The translations under genes were made by a program, and so were the position numbers. From a virus, in IMG/VR virus record IMGVR_UViG_3300043409_000364, positions 1-25,358 of that record: DNA of 25,358 nucleotides, one strand, 5' to 3'. Shown piece after piece: positions 43 through 9,493 of this stretch (position 1 is the stretch's first letter; each line of letters opens with the position of its first letter). The notes beneath the pieces were generated by a model. That model had not been told where the DNA came from and ran no database searches. It saw only the letters and a list, made by a program, of their open reading frames with translations.

Positions 43-978
43 ATGAGTGGTGGTGGTGGACCCCAGACGGTCGTTAACAAAACTGAAATCCCGGAATGGG
101 TGCAGGCTGCGGGTCAGAAAAACCTAGCTGCCGCCTATGACGTTTCGCAGTTCATGCCCGGCCCGTATGAAGGCCAGCGTGTAGCAGCCCTTGCTCCCGG
201 TCAGGTTAACACCATCGGTGCAATCGCCAACAATTACGCGATGGCACAGCCTGCGTTTGCACAAGCGCAACAGATGGCGGCACAGTCTGGCATGTATCAG
301 CCGTCACAGGTTACGGCAGGGCAGTTGTCCAGCACAGACCTGTCGCCATACATGAACCCTTATACTAAAGACGTACTCAACACGTCGCTTGATACGCTCA
401 ACCAGCAACGTGTAACCGGGCTGAACGCGGCACAAGAAGCTGCAACCAAAGCCCGCGCATTCGGTGGATCGCGTCTCGGCATCCAAGAAGGCGTCGTCAA
501 CGCAGCAGCACAGCAACAGGCTGGCCAGCTTGCGGCACAGTTGAATGCCCAAAACTATACACAGGCACAGGCTGCGGCACAGGCTGACATGGCTCGCCGG
601 ATGGAGTCACAGCGTCTTAATCAAGCGGCTGGATTATCTGGCGCGGGTCTTGGTCTTCAGGGGGCGCAGACACTTGGTGGCCTTGCAACCGCAGGACAGG
701 AATCTTTTCTTACCGGGGCAACCGGTGCGCTTGCTGCCCAGACTGCCATTCAGCAGCAGCAGCAGCAGGAACTTGCAGCGGCGCAGCAGTTGTACACTGA
801 GCAGCAGCAGTTCCCGTTGCAGCAGTTGCAGATACCGATCCAAGCCCTCGGCATCACGCCATATGGCCAGACCAGTACGCAGACAAAGACTGGTGGCGAG
901 AGTGGCAGCGGCCTAATGACAGGTCTTGGTGCTGCGTCGTCTGCCGTGTCCATCCTTGGGACGCTGGCGTCTCTATGA
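43..978 (+). CDS. Gln/Ala-rich virion (ejection-module) protein
   Basis: A 311-residue protein preceded by GAGGAG seven bases before the ATG. Residues 12-23 carry an N-x-T-x-IP-x-W-V-Q-A segment. The middle (about 50-260) is Ala/Gln-rich and predicted helical, including a run of six Gln encoded by pure CAG codons. The last 25 residues are Gly/Ala-rich and hydrophobic, resembling a membrane-active tail. The composition and its place at the head of a run of large Gln/Ala-rich proteins match internal virion or DNA-ejection proteins of podoviruses; this is inferred from composition and context, not from a catalytic motif. It overlaps the next gene by ATGA, so the two are probably translationally coupled. 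It could instead be a tail-associated structural protein. Confidence 0.6.
   Translation: MSGGGGPQTVVNKTEIPEWVQAAGQKNLAAAYDVSQFMPGPYEGQRVAALAPGQVNTIGAIANNYAMAQPAFAQAQQMAAQSGMYQPSQVTAGQLSSTDLSPYMNPYTKDVLNTSLDTLNQQRVTGLNAAQEAATKARAFGGSRLGIQEGVVNAAAQQQAGQLAAQLNAQNYTQAQAAAQADMARRMESQRLNQAAGLSGAGLGLQGAQTLGGLATAGQESFLTGATGALAAQTAIQQQQQQELAAAQQLYTEQQQFPLQQLQIPIQALGITPYGQTSTQTKTGGESGSGLMTGLGAASSAVSILGTLASL
751..768 (+). repeat. (CAG)6 microsatellite
   Basis: Six uninterrupted CAG codons encode six Gln inside the Gln/Ala-rich virion protein. The surrounding 80 bases are also rich in CAG. It is probably a compositional feature of the protein, but it is prone to slippage. Confidence 0.9.
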
Positions 979-1670
979 TTGATACCGCGCTCCAGTTTTC
1001 CGGTGGCAAAGACAGTCTGGCCTGCCTGTACCTTAACAAGCACAGGTGGGACAATCTGTATGTCGTCTGGCTGGATACGGGTGCGGCATATCCTGAGATG
1101 GTTGAATATATGGAAGGCTGGAAGTCCCGCCTGCCACACTTCATCCACATAAAGTCAGACCAGCCCGGCAACATCGCAGCACGCGGATGGCCTGTTGATG
1201 TTCTGCCGATTGAAAATACCCTGATCGGCAAGATCATCAGCGGCAACGACAATCAGTTGATGCAGTCGAACATGGACTGTTGCGCCACCAATATCTGGTT
1301 GCCCCTATACAATGGGTGCCTGAAGCTGGGCATCAAGTATCTCATGAAGGGCCAGCGCAATGACGACCGTCGCAAGTCTGCGGCACGGCATGGGCGTATA
1401 GTTGACGGCATTGAATACGTCATGCCGATACAGGATTGGACTGAGGAGCAGGTGTTCGAGTACCTCAAGTCCGTGGATGCAATCATGCCTCCGGGCTACG
1501 ATGCTGGCGAGAAGACAGGCCGCGATTGTTGGGACTGCACAGCCTATCTGGATGATAACCGCAAACGGGTGTATAACCTGACAGGCGACAAACAGGCAGA
1601 GATGCTGCGCCGTTTGGCTGTCATTGACGCCGAGATCAATAAGCAGTGGGTGCGTTATGGCAACGTATGA
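975..1670 (+). CDS. PP-loop ATPase, PAPS-reductase-like family
   Basis: A 231-residue enzyme of the PAPS reductase/adenine nucleotide alpha-hydrolase superfamily, which activates a substrate by adenylation. Residues 9-14 (SGGKDS) form the PP-loop; DTGAAYPE (34-41) matches the family's DTG-x3-PE segment; KGQR (125-128) and P-I-x-DWT-x3-VFEYL (151-164) fit the rest of the fold. Cys pairs stand at 102-103 and 185/188 (C-W-D-C). The C-terminal ECGLH signature of assimilatory CysH is absent, so sulfate assimilation is unlikely; a thiolation, nucleotide- or DNA-modification role, or metal/Fe-S binding, is possible. It is coupled by ATGA to the upstream virion gene and overlaps the downstream one by 14 bases, an odd position for an enzyme. 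Family assignment is firm, function unknown. Confidence 0.85.
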   Translation: MIDTALQFSGGKDSLACLYLNKHRWDNLYVVWLDTGAAYPEMVEYMEGWKSRLPHFIHIKSDQPGNIAARGWPVDVLPIENTLIGKIISGNDNQLMQSNMDCCATNIWLPLYNGCLKLGIKYLMKGQRNDDRRKSAARHGRIVDGIEYVMPIQDWTEEQVFEYLKSVDAIMPPGYDAGEKTGRDCWDCTAYLDDNRKRVYNLTGDKQAEMLRRLAVIDAEINKQWVRYGNV

Positions 1671-2526
1671 AGAAATCCTACGCAGGATCAGAGGCGCTGA
1701 AAGCAGCAACAATCCGTTAGCTCAAGCTAAAACATCTTCAGCGGGTGGCCTGTATCAGTTCACAACCGACACTATGGCAAGCGTCCTGAAGCGCATGGAC
1801 CCTGATACGTATGGCGGTAAGTCAAAGGCAGAGTTAGCAAAGTTCAAATTTGACCCGGCTGTCAGTGAGCAAGCTGCACAGTTCCATCTAAACCGCGACA
1901 TTATCCCAAAGCTGGAAAAATCCGGCGTCCCGGTAAATCCGGGTTCCATTTACGCATCATGGTTCCTTGGGCCGGACGGCGCGGTAAAAACCTATCAAGC
2001 TGACCCCGGAGCAAGGGTTGCCGACGTAACTCCATATGCGGTTGGCCCAAATGCGGGGATCAAGTTTCAGGGCAAGAAGTTTGGCGATTGGACGGCATCC
2101 GATCTTGTTAATTGGGCTGGCAGCAAGATGGGTGGCCCTGCTCCGCAGGGGGCAGCAACTCCATCCTTGTTAAGTCAGGCAACTGGTGGCCTTTTGGGTC
2201 AGGCAACTGTCCCCAGCGCAATGGGCATCGACACACGCAAGTTTGGTGAAGTCACGGAGCCGGGCTTCTCTGGAGCAGCATTGCCTGCGCAGCAGGAAGT
2301 TGCAGCCGCAGCTACCGATATGGGCTTCAAGGATTACGCGCCCAGCATGGGTGGAGCAGCGGGCATCGGCAGCGCACTTGCATCATTAGGCGGCGCACTT
2401 GCAAAGGCAGGTGCTGCGAAGGAAGATATGTCGTGGGTTCAAAAAGAGCTACCGGCGCATCGCGGCAAGTGGGATGATGAGATATTCAAGCGGTCCATCT
2501 TTGGCATTCGCGGCCTTTTGGGGTAA
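1657..2526 (+). CDS. Lytic-transglycosylase-like virion protein
   Basis: A 289-residue protein. The ATG at 1657 was chosen over an in-frame TTG at 1624 because the conserved domain begins directly after it. Residues 11-40 read as the start of an SLT/lysozyme-like fold: a probable catalytic Glu15 in an E-S-S-N-N-P context (compare ESGGNP in transglycosylases), then GLYQFT (31-36), the counterpart of GLMQ(F/I). Such enzymes cut the MurNAc-GlcNAc bond of peptidoglycan. The C-terminal half (about 160-265) is Ala/Gly-rich with a hydrophobic stretch near 230-255. In an ejection module this suggests a particle-borne muralytic protein that opens the cell wall during DNA entry. It overlaps the PP-loop gene by 14 bases. 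It could be structural with a decayed active site, since only the N-terminal motifs are visible. Confidence 0.65.
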   Translation: MATYEEILRRIRGAESSNNPLAQAKTSSAGGLYQFTTDTMASVLKRMDPDTYGGKSKAELAKFKFDPAVSEQAAQFHLNRDIIPKLEKSGVPVNPGSIYASWFLGPDGAVKTYQADPGARVADVTPYAVGPNAGIKFQGKKFGDWTASDLVNWAGSKMGGPAPQGAATPSLLSQATGGLLGQATVPSAMGIDTRKFGEVTEPGFSGAALPAQQEVAAAATDMGFKDYAPSMGGAAGIGSALASLGGALAKAGAAKEDMSWVQKELPAHRGKWDDEIFKRSIFGIRGLLG

Positions 2527-2531
2527 TTGAC

Positions 2532-4085
2532 ATGGCAACAGAAGCAGACGTAGCCGCACTATTCACATCCGTCCTTGGCCGGGCGCCAGATGCTGGCGGG
2601 TTGGAGTATTTTACAGACTTCGTTAATCAAGGCGGCACGCTAGAGCAGGTAGGGCAGGCGCTTGCGTCATCGAAAGAGGGTCAGGTTCGCGCCCTGTATT
2701 CTGATGTTTTCGGCAGACAAGCCGACGCGGGTGGACAAAAGTTCTTTGCTGACCAAGCCATCGCCGGAACGCCTATTGCCGACATACGAAAAGCAATGGC
2801 GTATTCACCGGAAGCTCAAGACCTTATTGAGAAAATCTACACGACAGACCTCAAGCGAAAGTCGGATATTAAAGGGAAACAGTTTTTCACCGATAAGATT
2901 GCAACGGGCGGTTTGCTGTCTGATGTGCGTAAAGACATCCAAGCATCAACAGAAGCGCAGGGGCTGCTGGGTACAACCAAGGTCGTCGACAACACCACCA
3001 AGGTCGTCGACAACACCACTAAGACAGACACCGCAGCCAATGTTGCAAACACGACCATAGCAAAAGACTACACTGGCGACGTCAACGCGGCTTTCCAAAA
3101 AGTGTTTGGCCGTGATGCTGATCCATCCGGTGCAAAATTCTGGGGCGGCAAACTTGCCGGTGGAATGTCCGCCGCCGATTTTGAAGCAGCATTGCGTAGC
3201 TCTGCTGAAGGCGTTCAGGCTGCTCGCGGCATCCGCTCTGTTCCATTTGGATCACAGATCGTTGATGGCCGCTTGCAGCAGATGGCCCAATATGCACAAC
3301 CTGCTGTGCAGGCTGGTCAGGCAATGGGCGCGCCGTCGTTGCAGGGTTTCCTTGCTGGTCGTCAAGGTCAGGTAAGCGGCAACGACATCAATTCCCTATA
3401 TCGCAATGTGCTTGGTCGCGCACCTGATCCGGGCGGCGTTGACTATTACACAGCCAAGATGAAAGGCGGCGCGACGCTAGGAGATGTTGAAGCCGAGATG
3501 CGCGGTTCTGCTGAGTTCAGGCAACCGTTGGCTCAGTTCCAGCAGTCGATGCAGTATCAGACAGCGTTGCCCGGCATGGTTCAGCCATTTAACCCGGCAG
3601 ACATTCCGAAGACATTCCAGCAGGTCATCTCGCCCGGCCCGCGACTTGATATGAACCAGACTGTAATCCCCGGCTGGTTGCAGGCGTCGATCAACGCGCA
3701 GAAGGCGAAAGACGGCATCGAGGTTACTGACGCTGACAAGTTTGCTGCCGCGAATACAAAAACAACGTATTCGGGACTGGGCGGCACCGTTACAAACGCA
3801 GGGACAACCGGCGCAAACACAGGTGGCTTGTTGGCGGCGAGCCAGATCAGCCCGCTGATCATCTCCGGGTATGGCGATTATGTTGGCGTGGCTCCCGGCA
3901 GCATTGACCTTCCCGGCGCGTCGTACTGGCAAAACTTGTTAAACAAGGGTACGCCAATCGCTGACATTTATTCCGGCATGGCAGGTACCGCTGCTGGGCT
4001 ATTATATGCGCCAACCAGACAAGCAAAACTGGCCGCTGCGGCTTCTGCTGCTGCGGACGCTGGTCGCGGAGGCTCAGACTTCTGA
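2532..4085 (+). CDS. DUF4214 repeat protein (virion/adhesion?)
   Basis: A 517-residue protein built from repeated ~44-residue units of the DUF4214 type, with the pattern Y-x3-L/F-G-R-x-P/A-D-x2-G-x3-Y/F-x10-G-x6-I/V-x6-S-x-E-A/G. Clear copies lie near residues 7-50, 54-97, 100-143, 184-227 and 287-329, and a weak one near 450-485. A linker with two perfect TKVVDNT repeats (149-162) separates units three and four. Residues 375-386 repeat the N-x-T-x-IP-x-W-[LV]-Q-A motif of the first gene of this module. DUF4214 is known from bacterial surface and secreted proteins; its function is not established. The location suggests a particle component, perhaps contacting the cell envelope. It starts five bases after the upstream stop. 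Confidence 0.7.
   Translation: MATEADVAALFTSVLGRAPDAGGLEYFTDFVNQGGTLEQVGQALASSKEGQVRALYSDVFGRQADAGGQKFFADQAIAGTPIADIRKAMAYSPEAQDLIEKIYTTDLKRKSDIKGKQFFTDKIATGGLLSDVRKDIQASTEAQGLLGTTKVVDNTTKVVDNTTKTDTAANVANTTIAKDYTGDVNAAFQKVFGRDADPSGAKFWGGKLAGGMSAADFEAALRSSAEGVQAARGIRSVPFGSQIVDGRLQQMAQYAQPAVQAGQAMGAPSLQGFLAGRQGQVSGNDINSLYRNVLGRAPDPGGVDYYTAKMKGGATLGDVEAEMRGSAEFRQPLAQFQQSMQYQTALPGMVQPFNPADIPKTFQQVISPGPRLDMNQTVIPGWLQASINAQKAKDGIEVTDADKFAAANTKTTYSGLGGTVTNAGTTGANTGGLLAASQISPLIISGYGDYVGVAPGSIDLPGASYWQNLLNKGTPIADIYSGMAGTAAGLLYAPTRQAKLAAAASAAADAGRGGSDF
2976..3017 (+). repeat. Perfect 21-bp tandem duplication
   Basis: The 21-bp units 2976-2996 and 2997-3017 are identical and encode TKVVDNT twice; a degenerate third copy (TKTDTAAN) follows. 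The perfect nucleotide identity points to a recent duplication of the linker between DUF4214 units three and four. Confidence 0.9.
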
Positions 4086-4130
4086 GCCATACTGTAATTC
4101 CGCAATCCTGCGGATGATGAGGAGAGTAAA

Positions 4131-4313
4131 ATGATATACAATGTTGATAACGCGCCCAAGTGGCTCAACGACATCTATCAGGAATGCCTGAACCGTAAGC
4201 CTGATCTGACCGGCATGTATTACTGGATTGGCGTCAAGGACGGTGGCCGGTCTGTAGAGGCGATCCGTGAGGGCATTTACCATTCTGAAGAAGCTGTAGC
4301 CCTTCGCAAATAA
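4131..4313 (+). CDS. Single-domain DUF4214-like small protein
   Basis: A 60-residue protein that is almost entirely one DUF4214-type unit: L-x2-I-Y-x3-L-x-R-x-P-D (residues 13-25), G-x-YYW (28-32), and a terminal I-x3-I-x2-S-x-E-A segment (45-55). It follows the same pattern as the repeats of the 517-residue upstream protein and probably arose from it, or shares its partner. A good GGAGAG site lies 5-10 bases before the ATG. The 45-base gap upstream holds a weak CCGCA/TGCGG hairpin (4100-4113). Function unknown; being free-standing, it may cap or compete with repeat assembly. Confidence 0.8.
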   Translation: MIYNVDNAPKWLNDIYQECLNRKPDLTGMYYWIGVKDGGRSVEAIREGIYHSEEAVALRK

Positions 4314-4324
4314 GGATAAACGAC

Positions 4325-4711
4325 ATGGCGGAAATGAGCAAAAAAGAACAGGAACGGATGATCCGGGAGTTGCTCGCTACCGTCATGTCGTCCGTCCAAG
4401 ACCCGGCACAAATGAGAGGCGTAGGCCAAACTCCTATGCAGCAGCGTGGTGGACAGACCCCTCCACAGCTGCAAATGCCTCCTGCACCTATGCAAGCACA
4501 GCCTGCCCAAGCGCAACCTGCTCCTATGCAGGGTCCGGCAAATATGAACGTGATTAAGTTCCTGAACCAGTATGCTAATATGGGCGACCCGCAAGGATAT
4601 GCCGACAAATTCGCTGGTGGTGACTTGAGCAAGATACAGGCTCGGACCTATCGCGATGAAGAAGGCAATCCGTATAATGATTATTATATCAAAGGGCTTC
4701 TTGGAGGCTGA
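4325..4711 (+). CDS. Met/Gln/Pro-rich hypothetical protein
   Basis: A 128-residue protein with an N-terminal charged helix (residues 3-25), a low-complexity Met/Gln/Pro/Ala stretch (about 35-78) containing repeated PMQ and QPA steps, and a more ordered C-terminal part with N-V-I-K-F-L-N-Q-Y (82-90) and a Tyr-rich end. AAGGA precedes the ATG. It ends two bases before the next gene of the ejection module. Its place and composition suggest a minor virion or assembly protein; the family was not recognised. Confidence 0.65.
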   Translation: MAEMSKKEQERMIRELLATVMSSVQDPAQMRGVGQTPMQQRGGQTPPQLQMPPAPMQAQPAQAQPAPMQGPANMNVIKFLNQYANMGDPQGYADKFAGGDLSKIQARTYRDEEGNPYNDYYIKGLLGG

Positions 4712-4713
4712 AA

Positions 4714-6282
4714 ATGGCTGAAGGTTTTCTCGGTGGTCTACTCGGCGGCATTGGTGATGCGGCACAGGGTGTCGGCTCTAGTCTGTCCGGGTTGCTTGGT
4801 GGCGGTCAGCCGTCATCCGGTCAATCGCAAGACCCCTATGCCCAAATGAGCCCGGAAGAACAGCGCCGCATGAGCTACTCTGCTCTGGGCCAACTGGGCG
4901 CAATCTTGCTTGCTGCCGGTCAGAAGCAGTCACCTGCACAGCGCGGCCAGATACTATCGCAACTCGGCGGTATCGGCCCCGGCATGGAGCAGCAGATTGC
5001 ACGATCGGCAGCGTTGCGCGGTCAGCAGGCAGAAGCGGCCCAGCGTCGCGAGTTGTTCCCGTTGCAGAAGCAGCAGTTAATGGGGACGCTTGAGCAGCAA
5101 AAGCTGACACAGCAACAATTGCAGCAGCAGATGGAAGCTGCCCGTGCGGCGGCTGCAATGCGGCAGCGTTTGATTGAAGGCGTCGGTGGCATGGGCGGTA
5201 TGCCTACGCCCGGCGGTATGCCTCCTGCTGCCGAGGCTCCATCATATCAGCCGTCGTTTGAACAGCCGCCACAGCAAATGGGCGGTGCGTTTGCCGGTGC
5301 GCCAGTGGCGCCCGGTGGATCAGCATTTGCAGCGCAGCCGCCGTCTATGGCACCGCCGCAGCAAGCCGCACCGCAAATCTCGCCACAGGTGCAACAGCAG
5401 TTGCAGCAAATGACCCCGCAAGAGCAGTCGATACTGTCTGTTTTCCCGAAAAATTACCTTCTCCAGATGCTATCTGACCCCAGCGTCAAGATTTCAGACA
5501 TCTTTGAAAAGGCCCGGCAGGCAATGGAAGAGACGCAAAAGGGTGCAACAGAGCAGGGCAACAAGTTGCGTGGCGAGTTCAGCCGCGTGTCCGATCCGTT
5601 TATTCAGCGGCAAACGGCATACGCAACCATGACTGACCTTGCCCGCAACAAATCCGGTGCCAGCGACATGGCTTTGGTGCTGTCAATCATGAAGGTTTAT
5701 GACCCGACATCGACGGTAACGGGTGGTGAAGCAGCGACCGCGCAGAACGCTGCGGGTGTTCCATCATTAATTGCTGCTCAATACAACAAGCTGACTGGCG
5801 GCGGGACACTAGACGACAAGGCCCGCACAGAACTTGTTCGTGCAGCAGAAACCCGGTTTGAACAGGAACTGGACTCATACGGACGTACGATTGATCGCTA
5901 CACCGGCCTTGCTAAGAGAGCAAAGGTTGATCCGCAAGATGTGGTTGAAGATGCACGCAATCCTGAGTTGCTGGCTGCACGCGAGCAGAGGAAAGAACTT
6001 GTGCGCGCATCCAAGATTGCGACGCCTCAACAGATACTGGGCATGGATGCTGATACCTTGCAGCTTTTAGTGCTTGATGAAATGAAGAAACCGCAACGTG
6101 ATGCGGTTAATGCGCGGATCATTCAGTTGCAGCAGCAGTCAATGCCGCAGCCGCCTGTAGCGCCTGTTGCTCCGGCACCTGCTGGTGGGTATGGGCTTGG
6201 GCAAAACCCGCTTGGACGTGCCATGCAGGCATATCCTCGTGGACTGATGCGTGAAGAACAACTGCCGCCCGTTGGATATTGA
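4714..6282 (+). CDS. Large Gln-rich ejection/internal virion protein
   Basis: A 522-residue protein. The N-terminus (1-30) is Gly/Leu-rich, with glycine repeats that could insert in a membrane. Residues 70-165 form a Gln/Arg/Ala-rich helical stretch, 165-235 is a Pro/Gln/Met/Gly low-complexity linker, and 235-480 is a more ordered charged helical region. The C-terminus returns to Pro/Gln-rich sequence. No enzyme motif is visible. This architecture matches internal virion proteins of podoviruses, which leave the particle with the DNA and help build a conduit across the envelope. It sits between the short Met/Gln/Pro gene and the 660-residue ejection protein with gaps of only a few bases. The role is inferred from context and composition. 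Confidence 0.6.
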   Translation: MAEGFLGGLLGGIGDAAQGVGSSLSGLLGGGQPSSGQSQDPYAQMSPEEQRRMSYSALGQLGAILLAAGQKQSPAQRGQILSQLGGIGPGMEQQIARSAALRGQQAEAAQRRELFPLQKQQLMGTLEQQKLTQQQLQQQMEAARAAAAMRQRLIEGVGGMGGMPTPGGMPPAAEAPSYQPSFEQPPQQMGGAFAGAPVAPGGSAFAAQPPSMAPPQQAAPQISPQVQQQLQQMTPQEQSILSVFPKNYLLQMLSDPSVKISDIFEKARQAMEETQKGATEQGNKLRGEFSRVSDPFIQRQTAYATMTDLARNKSGASDMALVLSIMKVYDPTSTVTGGEAATAQNAAGVPSLIAAQYNKLTGGGTLDDKARTELVRAAETRFEQELDSYGRTIDRYTGLAKRAKVDPQDVVEDARNPELLAAREQRKELVRASKIATPQQILGMDADTLQLLVLDEMKKPQRDAVNARIIQLQQQSMPQPPVAPVAPAPAGGYGLGQNPLGRAMQAYPRGLMREEQLPPVGY

Positions 6283-6291
6283 GGTTAGCAA

Positions 6292-8274
6292 ATGGCTGAA
6301 GAAAGCGCACTCGACATCCTGAAGCGTTACCGCCAGCCTGCCGAGGCTGCTGATCCGCAGTTGCAGGCTGTACAGGCTGCACAATTGCGGTCGAAAGCTG
6401 GTCTACCGGGTCAAACGTCACTGATTGGCGATGTACTCGGTCGCCAGTTTCTCGGCCAAGGTGTGCTGATGGGTGCAGGCGACGAGGCTGAAGCTGTAGC
6501 CCGGTCGCTTGCTCGCGGCACAACCTATTCAGACGAGCTGGCATATGTGCGCCAGATGAACGCGCTGACACGGGCTGAACGGCCAATGACCAGCATGGGT
6601 GCCGAGATCATCGGTGGCCTTGCTCCGGCGGTGGCTGCTACCGTGTTTTCAGGTGGCCTTGCTGGACCGGCGGCTGCTGCACGTACAGTCGGGCTTGCAT
6701 CGCAGATCGGTCGTCAGGCTGGCGTTGGTGCAGCGGCTGGCGGTGTGCAGGGCGGCATTGAGGGATTTGCAAAGGGTGAAGGCGGCGCGGCTGCACGTCT
6801 GGACAAGGCGGCAGAGGAAGCCGTGCAAGGAATGGCATTCGGTGGCGCGGCTGGTGCTGCAATACCGGCGGCAAAGGGTCTATATCAATCATTCAGCCGT
6901 ACACCTCAAGAACTTGCAGCTGGTATTGTGCAGCGCGGGTTGCAGCAGGAAGGCATGACTGCGCCAGACCTGTTGAGGGCATATCAGCAGCGTCAGGCCG
7001 CTGGCGTTAAGCCGGAGATCGCATCAGAAATCCTGCCGCCCGGTAGCGCACTTGAGTCGCAGGCTCGCCTTGTTGCGCAGACACCGGGCGCGTCACGCGG
7101 CCAGATCGGCCAGCAGTTGGCAGAACGGGCAAACCAGCAAGAAATTAGAATGCTCGAAGACTTTGAGCGGGCTATTGGTCAGCAGAAGAATATGTTTGCC
7201 ACGTTGGATGACCTTACCGCAGCAAAAGAACTTCAGGCCAGGCCACTTTATCAGGCGGTTGACCCACTTCCGGCGCGTACTGATAAGATGGACGAATTGC
7301 TTCTGCGTGTTCCCGACGACATCTTTTCCAGCGTAAAAAGAACGGCGAAGATTGAAGGCATCAAGCCGCGCGACATTGTTATGACTAGCAAGGACGGGCA
7401 GCAGTTCGTTGGCAGAGACTACACATTTGCCGACGTTGACTCGATTCAACGCAAACTACGCGAGGCGGCTACCCGTGCGTTTGAGAACAAGGAAGTCACA
7501 GAGGCACGCAGCCTTGTGAAACTGCGCGAAGAAGTTATGGAAGTAGCCGATAATCTTAGCCCGACATACAAGAAGGCCAGAGAGATTTATGCGGGTGCAG
7601 AGCAGGCCGCAGTGAAGATGAAAGAAGGGCAAGACATCTTCAAACTGCGCGCAGAGCAGATCGAGCGCGATGTCTCCAAGATGTCTCGGGCAGACAAAGA
7701 TGCGTACCTGACAGGTGTCATGGACCGCTTTAACCAGATATTGCTAGGCAAGCCTTTAGGCGAAGACGCCACACGAGCCTTCCGCAAGGGTACGGCCAAG
7801 CTACAAATGGAGGCTGCAATCAAGGCGGCAACCGATGACCCTGTAGAGGCAAAACGGCTCACGGATACATTGTTTCAAGCTATCGACCGCGAAGCCCGGA
7901 TGGCCTCATCCAAGAACAAGATAACAGGCGGCTCGCAGACTGCGCAGACGTTAGCCGAGCAAGGAAGCAACCTGTCGGCTGTTGGTACGCTTGCAGGTAT
8001 GGCATCTGATCTTGCAACTGGTGGCCCTTCTGTTGGAATGATTGCCCGCCCGCTGCAAGCCATTAGCCAGCGTATGCAAAAGGGTATGACCGCTAATAAA
8101 ATGGCTGCAACAAACGAGGAACTGCGCAAGACCCTGTTTGCCCAGTCGGAGGCAGACCTGCGCAGGCAATTAGAGGCAATGCAGGCGCTCATGGCGCAGC
8201 GCGGCCAGTATCAACAGCCAACCGGGCTCAAGTCGATGGTTCCCGGTCTGCTGGGTTCCGCCCTCAACAATTAA
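6292..8274 (+). CDS. Large internal virion/DNA-ejection protein
   Basis: A 660-residue protein, the largest of this module. Residues about 100-205 contain three Gly/Ala-rich hydrophobic stretches with glycine-zipper spacing, which could span or insert in a membrane. They are followed by a long charged helical region (about 210-540) and a second Ala/Gly/Met-rich hydrophobic patch near 560-600. A bulky inner virion protein with membrane-active helices is typical of podovirus ejection proteins that form a trans-envelope channel. A GAGG site precedes the ATG by seven bases. Transcription of the module should stop just after it, at the hairpin at 8294-8333. The role is inferred; no catalytic motif is seen. 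Confidence 0.65.
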   Translation: MAEESALDILKRYRQPAEAADPQLQAVQAAQLRSKAGLPGQTSLIGDVLGRQFLGQGVLMGAGDEAEAVARSLARGTTYSDELAYVRQMNALTRAERPMTSMGAEIIGGLAPAVAATVFSGGLAGPAAAARTVGLASQIGRQAGVGAAAGGVQGGIEGFAKGEGGAAARLDKAAEEAVQGMAFGGAAGAAIPAAKGLYQSFSRTPQELAAGIVQRGLQQEGMTAPDLLRAYQQRQAAGVKPEIASEILPPGSALESQARLVAQTPGASRGQIGQQLAERANQQEIRMLEDFERAIGQQKNMFATLDDLTAAKELQARPLYQAVDPLPARTDKMDELLLRVPDDIFSSVKRTAKIEGIKPRDIVMTSKDGQQFVGRDYTFADVDSIQRKLREAATRAFENKEVTEARSLVKLREEVMEVADNLSPTYKKAREIYAGAEQAAVKMKEGQDIFKLRAEQIERDVSKMSRADKDAYLTGVMDRFNQILLGKPLGEDATRAFRKGTAKLQMEAAIKAATDDPVEAKRLTDTLFQAIDREARMASSKNKITGGSQTAQTLAEQGSNLSAVGTLAGMASDLATGGPSVGMIARPLQAISQRMQKGMTANKMAATNEELRKTLFAQSEADLRRQLEAMQALMAQRGQYQQPTGLKSMVPGLLGSALNN

Positions 8275-8885: not shown

Positions 8886-9101
8886 ATGCTTACCAAGAAC
8901 CCAATCGACCTGCGCGCCAACGACGACAAGTCATACACGCTGTATTATTTCTCCGAGGAGATTGGCTACATTGAGCGGCTGATGCGCAGAAACAAAACTG
9001 TGAAGATGTCGATCTGGCGCGTCTGCACAGTTAACGGCGCCCTCGATTACTGCGGGTCATTGAAATCAGCAAAGAGCCGCCTGCTGGAGATGCACCATTG
9101 A
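8886..9101 (+). CDS. Hypothetical protein
   Basis: A 71-residue protein. The start at 8886 is set by GGAGG at 8876-8880; a longer frame from 8856 would overlap the 30-residue membrane peptide. The sequence is mixed alpha/beta, with Y-T-L-Y-Y-F (residues 18-23) and a C-terminal basic helix K-S-A-K-S-R-L-L-E. No family was recognised. Its stop overlaps the TTG start of the DnaA-like gene, so the two are probably translated together. Confidence 0.75.
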   Translation: MLTKNPIDLRANDDKSYTLYYFSEEIGYIERLMRRNKTVKMSIWRVCTVNGALDYCGSLKSAKSRLLEMHH

Positions 9102-9493
9102 GCAACGTGTATGAGGATTTGACAGAACACTACAAGGCTGTTGCTCGCAGGATTGCGGCTGTTGCGCCGGTAATAGAAGTTAAGCCTGTAAAGGTAGAGC
9201 CTGTAAAAGTTGAGCCTGTAGAAGTGCCGCTTCCGGTAATCAGGCTGGGTGTACCGCCGGTATCTGATGCAGCGAGGCAGTACATCAGTTCAATTCTGCT
9301 GGCGAACAAAATGGGGTGGAAGGAACTGGTCTACCCCAACAGAAGCACGGACATGGTCAGACTGCGCGCTCAGATATACGTGTTTCTAAATGATCGGGGA
9401 TGGTCGTTATCGCAAATCGGAAAACTGTTTAACCGCGATCATTCGACAGTCTTGTATTCAATACGCAACATAAGAAAGTGGAGCCCAAAATAA
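9098..9493 (+). CDS. Stand-alone DnaA domain IV-like DNA-binding protein
   Basis: A 131-residue protein. The C-terminal half (about 72-127) matches DnaA domain IV: an Arg-rich helix R-L-R-A-Q-I-Y (88-94), then W-S-L-S-Q-I-G-K-L-F (102-111) and R-D-H-S-T-V-L-Y (113-120), corresponding to the DnaA signature RDHTTVLHA that reads the DnaA box. The AAA+ domain is missing. Residues 28-43 form a repeated KPVKVEP linker joining a short helical N-terminus. The TTG start overlaps the previous stop, and GGAG lies eight bases upstream. It probably binds DnaA-box-like DNA, either to recruit or compete with host DnaA or to regulate transcription. Family is clear, biological role inferred. Confidence 0.82.
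   Translation: MSNVYEDLTEHYKAVARRIAAVAPVIEVKPVKVEPVKVEPVEVPLPVIRLGVPPVSDAARQYISSILLANKMGWKELVYPNRSTDMVRLRAQIYVFLNDRGWSLSQIGKLFNRDHSTVLYSIRNIRKWSPK
9182..9226 (+). repeat. 15-bp tandem repeat encoding VKVEP linker
   Basis: Three imperfect 15-bp units (AGCCTGTAAAGGTAG-type) encode the P-V-[KE]-V-E/P repeats of the linker before the DnaA-like domain. It is probably a flexible spacer that grew by slippage. Confidence 0.8.

Follow-up and report, generated by a model that had tools for sequence, protein, structure and literature searches.

A DUF4214 array gene and a conserved one-unit companion gene in the ejection gene block of an uncultured phiM5-related podovirus

The window analysed here, a virus record of 25,358 bases taken at its full length, is a fragment of an uncultured podovirus (short-tailed) of about 38 kb that is related to phiM5. 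We call it a fragment because most of the capsid-tail block present in G001 is absent from the window. G001 is our label for IMGVR_UViG_3300005581_000002, a relative of 38,167 bases that we used as the close relative for DNA alignment and whose portal protein is 97% identical to that of the window. Regarding its wider kinship, the window portal protein has matches in 396 phage records, the best of which include Manatee Spring phages and phiM5, and a search of bacterial genomes with the same protein found one contig, which belongs to an uncultured bacterial bin.

From 43 to 8274 the gene order is ejection-type protein, PAPS reductase, SLT, array, one-unit gene, 128-aa gene, 522-aa gene and 660-aa gene. 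The features of this region are the following:

43-978, + strand: DNA-ejection-type protein (phrog_4287, E 6.2e-11)
1657-2526, + strand: virion transglycosylase (SLT) gene adjoining the array (phrog_4067, E 2.8e-11)
2532-4085, + strand: DUF4214 array protein, 517 aa (PF13946, five stretches, E 2.8e-39)
2550-2684, + strand: DUF4214 unit 1, residues 7-51 (unit profile, 58-73 bits)
2685-2819, + strand: DUF4214 unit 2, residues 52-96, directly abutting unit 1 (unit profile)
2826-2960, + strand: DUF4214 unit 3, residues 99-143 (unit profile)
2976-3023, + strand: 21-bp tandem repeat that gives a Thr/Asn/Val-rich linker (Tandem Repeats Finder, 2.3 copies)
3081-3212, + strand: DUF4214 unit 4, residues 184-227 (unit profile)
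3387-3518, + strand: DUF4214 unit 5, residues 286-329 (unit profile; no DNA match in G001 there)
3537-3680, + strand: conserved core, residues 336-383 (FQQS.QYQ.ALP.M..FNPADIP..RLD..IP.WL, invariant columns in two alignments)
3852-4007, + strand: degenerate unit 6, residues 441-492 (profile match at 459-487; predicted four helices)
4099-4114, + strand: hairpin between the array and one-unit genes, six-base arms and four-base loop (single-strand fold)
4120-4126, + strand: ribosome-binding site AGGAGAG of the one-unit gene (sequence)
4131-4313, + strand: one-unit DUF4214 protein, 60 aa (PF13946, E 7.8e-7)
4325-4711, + strand: 128-aa protein, whose C-terminus matches a segment of the long SLT proteins of relatives (hhalign 94.2, E 1.2e-7)
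4714-6282, + strand: 522-aa ejection-module protein (match to phiM5 gp29, 36% over 53 aa, E 5e-4)
6292-8274, + strand: 660-aa ejection-module protein (phrog_5880, E 4.2e-40)

The PAPS reductase gene (975-1670), a gene of sulfur metabolism, sits within the ejection module; 14 of the 24 records compared have a gene of this kind.

The initial annotation had placed the DUF4214 genes in a phage ejection module, and this setting is borne out by the neighbours, namely an ejection-type protein, an SLT and homologues of the phiM5 particle proteins gp27 and gp29. The protein encoded at 43-978 is 30% identical to gp27 (E 1.5e-28), which is annotated as a putative tailspike, and the 522-aa protein resembles gp29. 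In phiM5, a Sinorhizobium phage, the internal virion proteins gp28, gp29 and gp31 have the same module position as in the window, and the GenBank record notes gp27, gp28, gp29 and gp31 as 'detected in phage particle proteome'. For gp27 and gp29 these notes support the module setting, not the array itself. Moreover, phiM5 differs from the window in two ways: it is without a DUF4214 array gene, and its gp28 exceeds the window SLT in length and could not be aligned to it (no meaningful BLAST match, E 6.3), nor was it joined to the group of long SLT proteins (hhalign 0.3).

Regarding the two DUF4214 genes, their coordinates and lengths were given correctly before, and the proposed profile search gave PF13946 matches in both above the Pfam cut-off of 23.2 bits, with 133.5 bits for the array protein and 29.5 bits, in one stretch, for the 60-residue gene, which is thus a single DUF4214 unit as had been claimed. 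The array protein had been described as carrying five or six units, and we found five of Pfam grade plus a degenerate sixth, which scores 13-25 bits at residues 459-487 with a unit-derived profile. We prefer the count of six, because AlphaFold2 predicts the degenerate unit as four helices at 441-492 (pLDDT about 75-86). The full array model is poor overall, with a mean pLDDT of 57.7: values for units 1, 4, 5 and 6 are largely in the range 70-86, those for unit 2 and a large part of unit 3 are low, and the majority of the linkers score under 50. We read this predicted architecture as beads on flexible linkers. The protein has no hydropathy stretch of the membrane-helix kind, its maximum being 0.96 over 19 residues. 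For the one-unit protein, modelled from an alignment with 44 other units, the suggested structure prediction gave four helices with a mean pLDDT of 87.9.

Array proteins with 2 to 6 detected units each occur in 28 viral contigs, window included, when loci on one contig are merged. In two contigs the split is reversed (L199:3974-5347 and L200:4001-5356), so that a 104-aa two-unit DUF4214 gene precedes the array, replacing the one-unit gene after it. In the viral contigs L172-L178 there is a 939-aa protein (L172:447-3266) with one weak N-terminal DUF4214 unit and matches to the CW-type zinc finger. The window array had no match to PHROG at E 0.1, that is, no sequence match to a known ejection protein family, and none in 50,697 phage records (tblastn, E 1e-3). 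The known-phage search gave no match with the array of G032, and with that of G042 it gave only EBPR siphovirus 2, whose gp15 has two DUF4214 units (E 2.2e-19); this gp15 is annotated as 'protease' and lies amid small hypothetical genes, not in an ejection module. A sequence search of solved structures with the full array protein had 0 matches at E 1, and a search of bacterial genomes with the array alignment gave 71 pattern matches, of which 0 could be confirmed. The closest protein is A0A6J5MN99 of an uncultured Caudovirales phage (UniProt, via BFVD), with 473 aa and 38% identity in the alignment (Foldseek E 3.4e-20). It is clearly the same kind of protein, a likeness seen from the protein alone, and it carries a domain name only as annotation ('DUF4214 domain-containing protein').

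In order to compare relatives, we defined the slot as what lies between PAPS/SLT and the 522-aa gene and classified it in 24 records (23 relatives and the window), of which 21 were readable there (all but G034, G038 and G045). Of the 90 distinct records of relatives behind L002-L093, 50 were searched for DUF4214, the omitted ones being mostly short. An array, encoded in the ejection gene block between the SLT and 522-aa genes, occupies the slot in 7 of the 21 readable records. In 4 others the slot holds a protein of 114-158 aa with the shared core and one weak unit, and in 10 it is without DUF4214 (another protein in 4, a long SLT without a separate gene in 5, nothing in 1). The array is therefore accessory, since 14 of the 21 records lack it.

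The core joins the arrays to the short slot proteins with hhalign probabilities of 91.9 and 94.3, and the short slot proteins in turn match the 116-aa proteins of the Caudoviricetes MW202711 and MW202496 (hhalign 85.7). These 116-aa proteins are in the same slot, encoded beside, and after, genes annotated as 'putative internal virion protein', but they are unlike the array in being without a DUF4214 unit, and the direct core match between arrays and 116-aa proteins is weak (hhalign 8.5). In the short slot proteins the weak unit has a score of 9.6-11.5 bits and is suggestive only, because the best of 2000 shuffles (10.7) falls within that range; Pfam DUF4214 did not match the two short slot proteins tested. 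Furthermore, the arrays of G032, G035 and G041 are in the same slot without the conserved core, and a link of the third slot family (G021, G024, G046, G047) to the core was unsupported (hhalign 20.2 or less). The core links, together with the domain of the 128-aa protein that is found inside long SLT proteins, make the region seem one functional block, variously split into genes.

The DNA alignment of the window to G001 runs at 86% to base 1666, has no match over 1667-2184 (the SLT catalytic half), resumes at 85% over 2185-2618, is lost again over 2619-3227, returns at 80% over 3228-3354, has no match over 3355-3535, which holds unit 5, and continues at 74% over 3536-4365. The breaks thus fall within the SLT gene and between array units, and G044 and G042 also differ from the window by breaks around the array. 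The unmatched SLT segment beside an 85% identical C-terminal part amounts to a domain swap inside one gene. At the protein level the identity to G001 is 97% for the PAPS reductase, 55% for the array and 56% for the SLT. Judged from these alignments, segments of the array and of the SLT have been swapped between close relatives. We also computed dN/dS on eight relatives, leaving out the saturated array dS of L189 and L190. Against six close relatives the array has dN 0.25-0.48 and dS 1.06-2.3, and it is far more diverged than the one-unit gene, which has dN 0.04-0.09, dS 0.36-0.69 and dN/dS about 0.1-0.16. The array dS being above that of the one-unit gene points to an import of array segments and to more than rapid protein evolution alone.

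This mosaic divergence could also be expected if the array were an external tail component touching the host surface, its unit variation following receptor variation. The annotation of phiM5 gp27 as a putative tailspike points the same way, as do passages of two papers (PMC12780176, PMC11970703) that report DUF4214 in surface or secreted bacterial proteins, in agreement with what the initial annotation had said of the domain. Nevertheless, the array is located on the ejection side of the SLT gene, the domain of the adjoining 128-aa protein occurs within the SLT proteins of relatives, and the array model consists of helical units and low-confidence linkers with no fibre fold, so that we regard a tail contact as unlikely.

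A ribosome site of its own precedes the one-unit gene, and the hairpin upstream ends five bases before this site. A similar stem lies upstream of the gene in 12 of 15 leaders, several of the 15 being near-identical, and in L084, L209 and L210 the stem has altered bases in both arms. This arrangement is consistent with a separate control of expression, as far as the leader sequences go. We considered whether the reading frame could be an artefact or non-coding, which is ruled out by the AGGAGAG site and the dN/dS given above; both DUF4214 genes are real and are found in related viruses too.

A homologue of the one-unit gene follows the array in 14 other contigs. Among the contigs with at least 250 bases past the array, it comes directly after in 15 of 25, although the less biased frequency is 10 of 20, because 5 of the 15 were found by searching with the one-unit gene itself. 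Its protein shares 83-90% identity with that of seven relatives, 66-72% with that of four others and 42-43% with that of three more. The suggestion that the small gene arose by recent duplication does not hold. Over the unit, one-unit proteins from distantly related phages share 48-52% identity, whereas no array unit exceeds 39% identity with the window copy, and among the 12 best matches of that copy, the lowest of them at 34%, there is no unit from its own array. For the G042 copy the identity rises to 40% with a single full array unit and to 44% with a single partial one. A recent copy of an array unit is thus ruled out by the identities and by the spread among contigs, and by the same comparisons the one-unit gene is an old, separate lineage.

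A ribosome site and upstream hairpin of its own would also suit a one-unit protein that tunes an assembly-only array, i.e. a scaffold or chaperone that packs the ejection proteins and is absent from mature virions, and the predicted bead-and-linker helical architecture would fit such a role. We consider this improbable, however, since there is no positive sign that the array is removed from the virion, and its co-swapping with the SLT catalytic domain better suits a role facing the envelope.

Regarding the fold, the nearest solved folds of the units are the phycobilisome linker domains (pfam00427; ApcE), which resemble them in profile and fold matches that are all low-scoring. The unit profile matched ApcE, the phycobilisome core-membrane linker, with E 8.3e-7 summed over several weak matches, and phycobilisome linkers made up 10 of the 13 rows of this search. 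They were also 27 of 35 rows in Foldseek, every one with E 2.4 or worse, 20 of 21 rows in VIA with the one-unit model (Z up to 4.3, 54 residues, 2.7 A) and 24 of 35 rows in VIA with the array model (Z up to 4.7, 65 residues, 2.9 A), where an unrelated F-BAR chain had Z 4.6 at 7.7 A. The Pfam linker model PF00427 matched 0 of 50 phage records at E 1 and was weak in 3 of 10 arrays (best E 0.028), not above the cut-off. The crAss-like phage cargo protein 2 (PF25712) likewise stayed below the cut-off, with weak matches in 4 of 10 arrays (best E 0.028) and one of 22 records at E 0.0095. The match of the predicted units to linkers is weak but consistent, and we keep it as a lead because Z does not exceed 4.7, a range where common helical arrangements match too.

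If the units were half-size relatives of phycobilisome linkers, an ApcE-like array might thread and space rings, here made of the ejected proteins of the DNA conduit, with the unit number (3 to 6) setting conduit length or ring count per host envelope and the one-unit protein capping the end; we think this very improbable. The fold also bears on the idea that the units attach to peptidoglycan or to some other glycan of the envelope, keeping the ejected SLT at its substrate. The array adjoins the SLT and swapping varies both, and for segmented filamentous bacteria one paper describes DUF4214 as a domain that probably anchors to the surface; nevertheless the nearest fold of the units is a protein-protein linker, and we find this proposal doubtful.

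The explanation that we prefer, at a probability of about one half, is that the array is a modular internal virion protein of a LUZ24/phiM5-type podovirus, with its units as contact beads beside the ejected SLT. We infer that it is carried in the virion and probably ejected with the SLT encoded just before it. The core segment (residues about 336-383) may dock the array to the ejection machinery, and its three to six four-helix units, strung on flexible linkers, would serve as beads for holding partner proteins or parts of the envelope. Recombination exchanges the units and the SLT catalytic domain, as expected for parts facing a variable target, and the one-unit protein may be a conserved free partner, e.g. 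a cap or adaptor for the array. The absence of the array gene from the corresponding slot of phiM5 counts against this explanation.

We know of no function for DUF4214. Excerpts of the open-access full texts that name DUF4214, PF13946 or pfam13946 do not treat a phage virion protein, and we found no open-access full text that combines 'phycobilisome linker' with DUF4214. DUF4214-named proteins of uncultured phages in UniProt and the two units in EBPR siphovirus 2 were already known; what this analysis adds is the genomic setting, the exchange of segments, the core segment, the one-unit partner with its old lineage and the resemblance to linkers. The natural variation of unit number between close relatives, together with a conserved free unit, offers a tractable route to what the unit binds, and kinship with phycobilisome linkers, if true, would give DUF4214 a fold and a type of function. 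Elsewhere in the window, the small protein encoded at 9098-9493 has a DnaA-type C-terminal helix-turn-helix.
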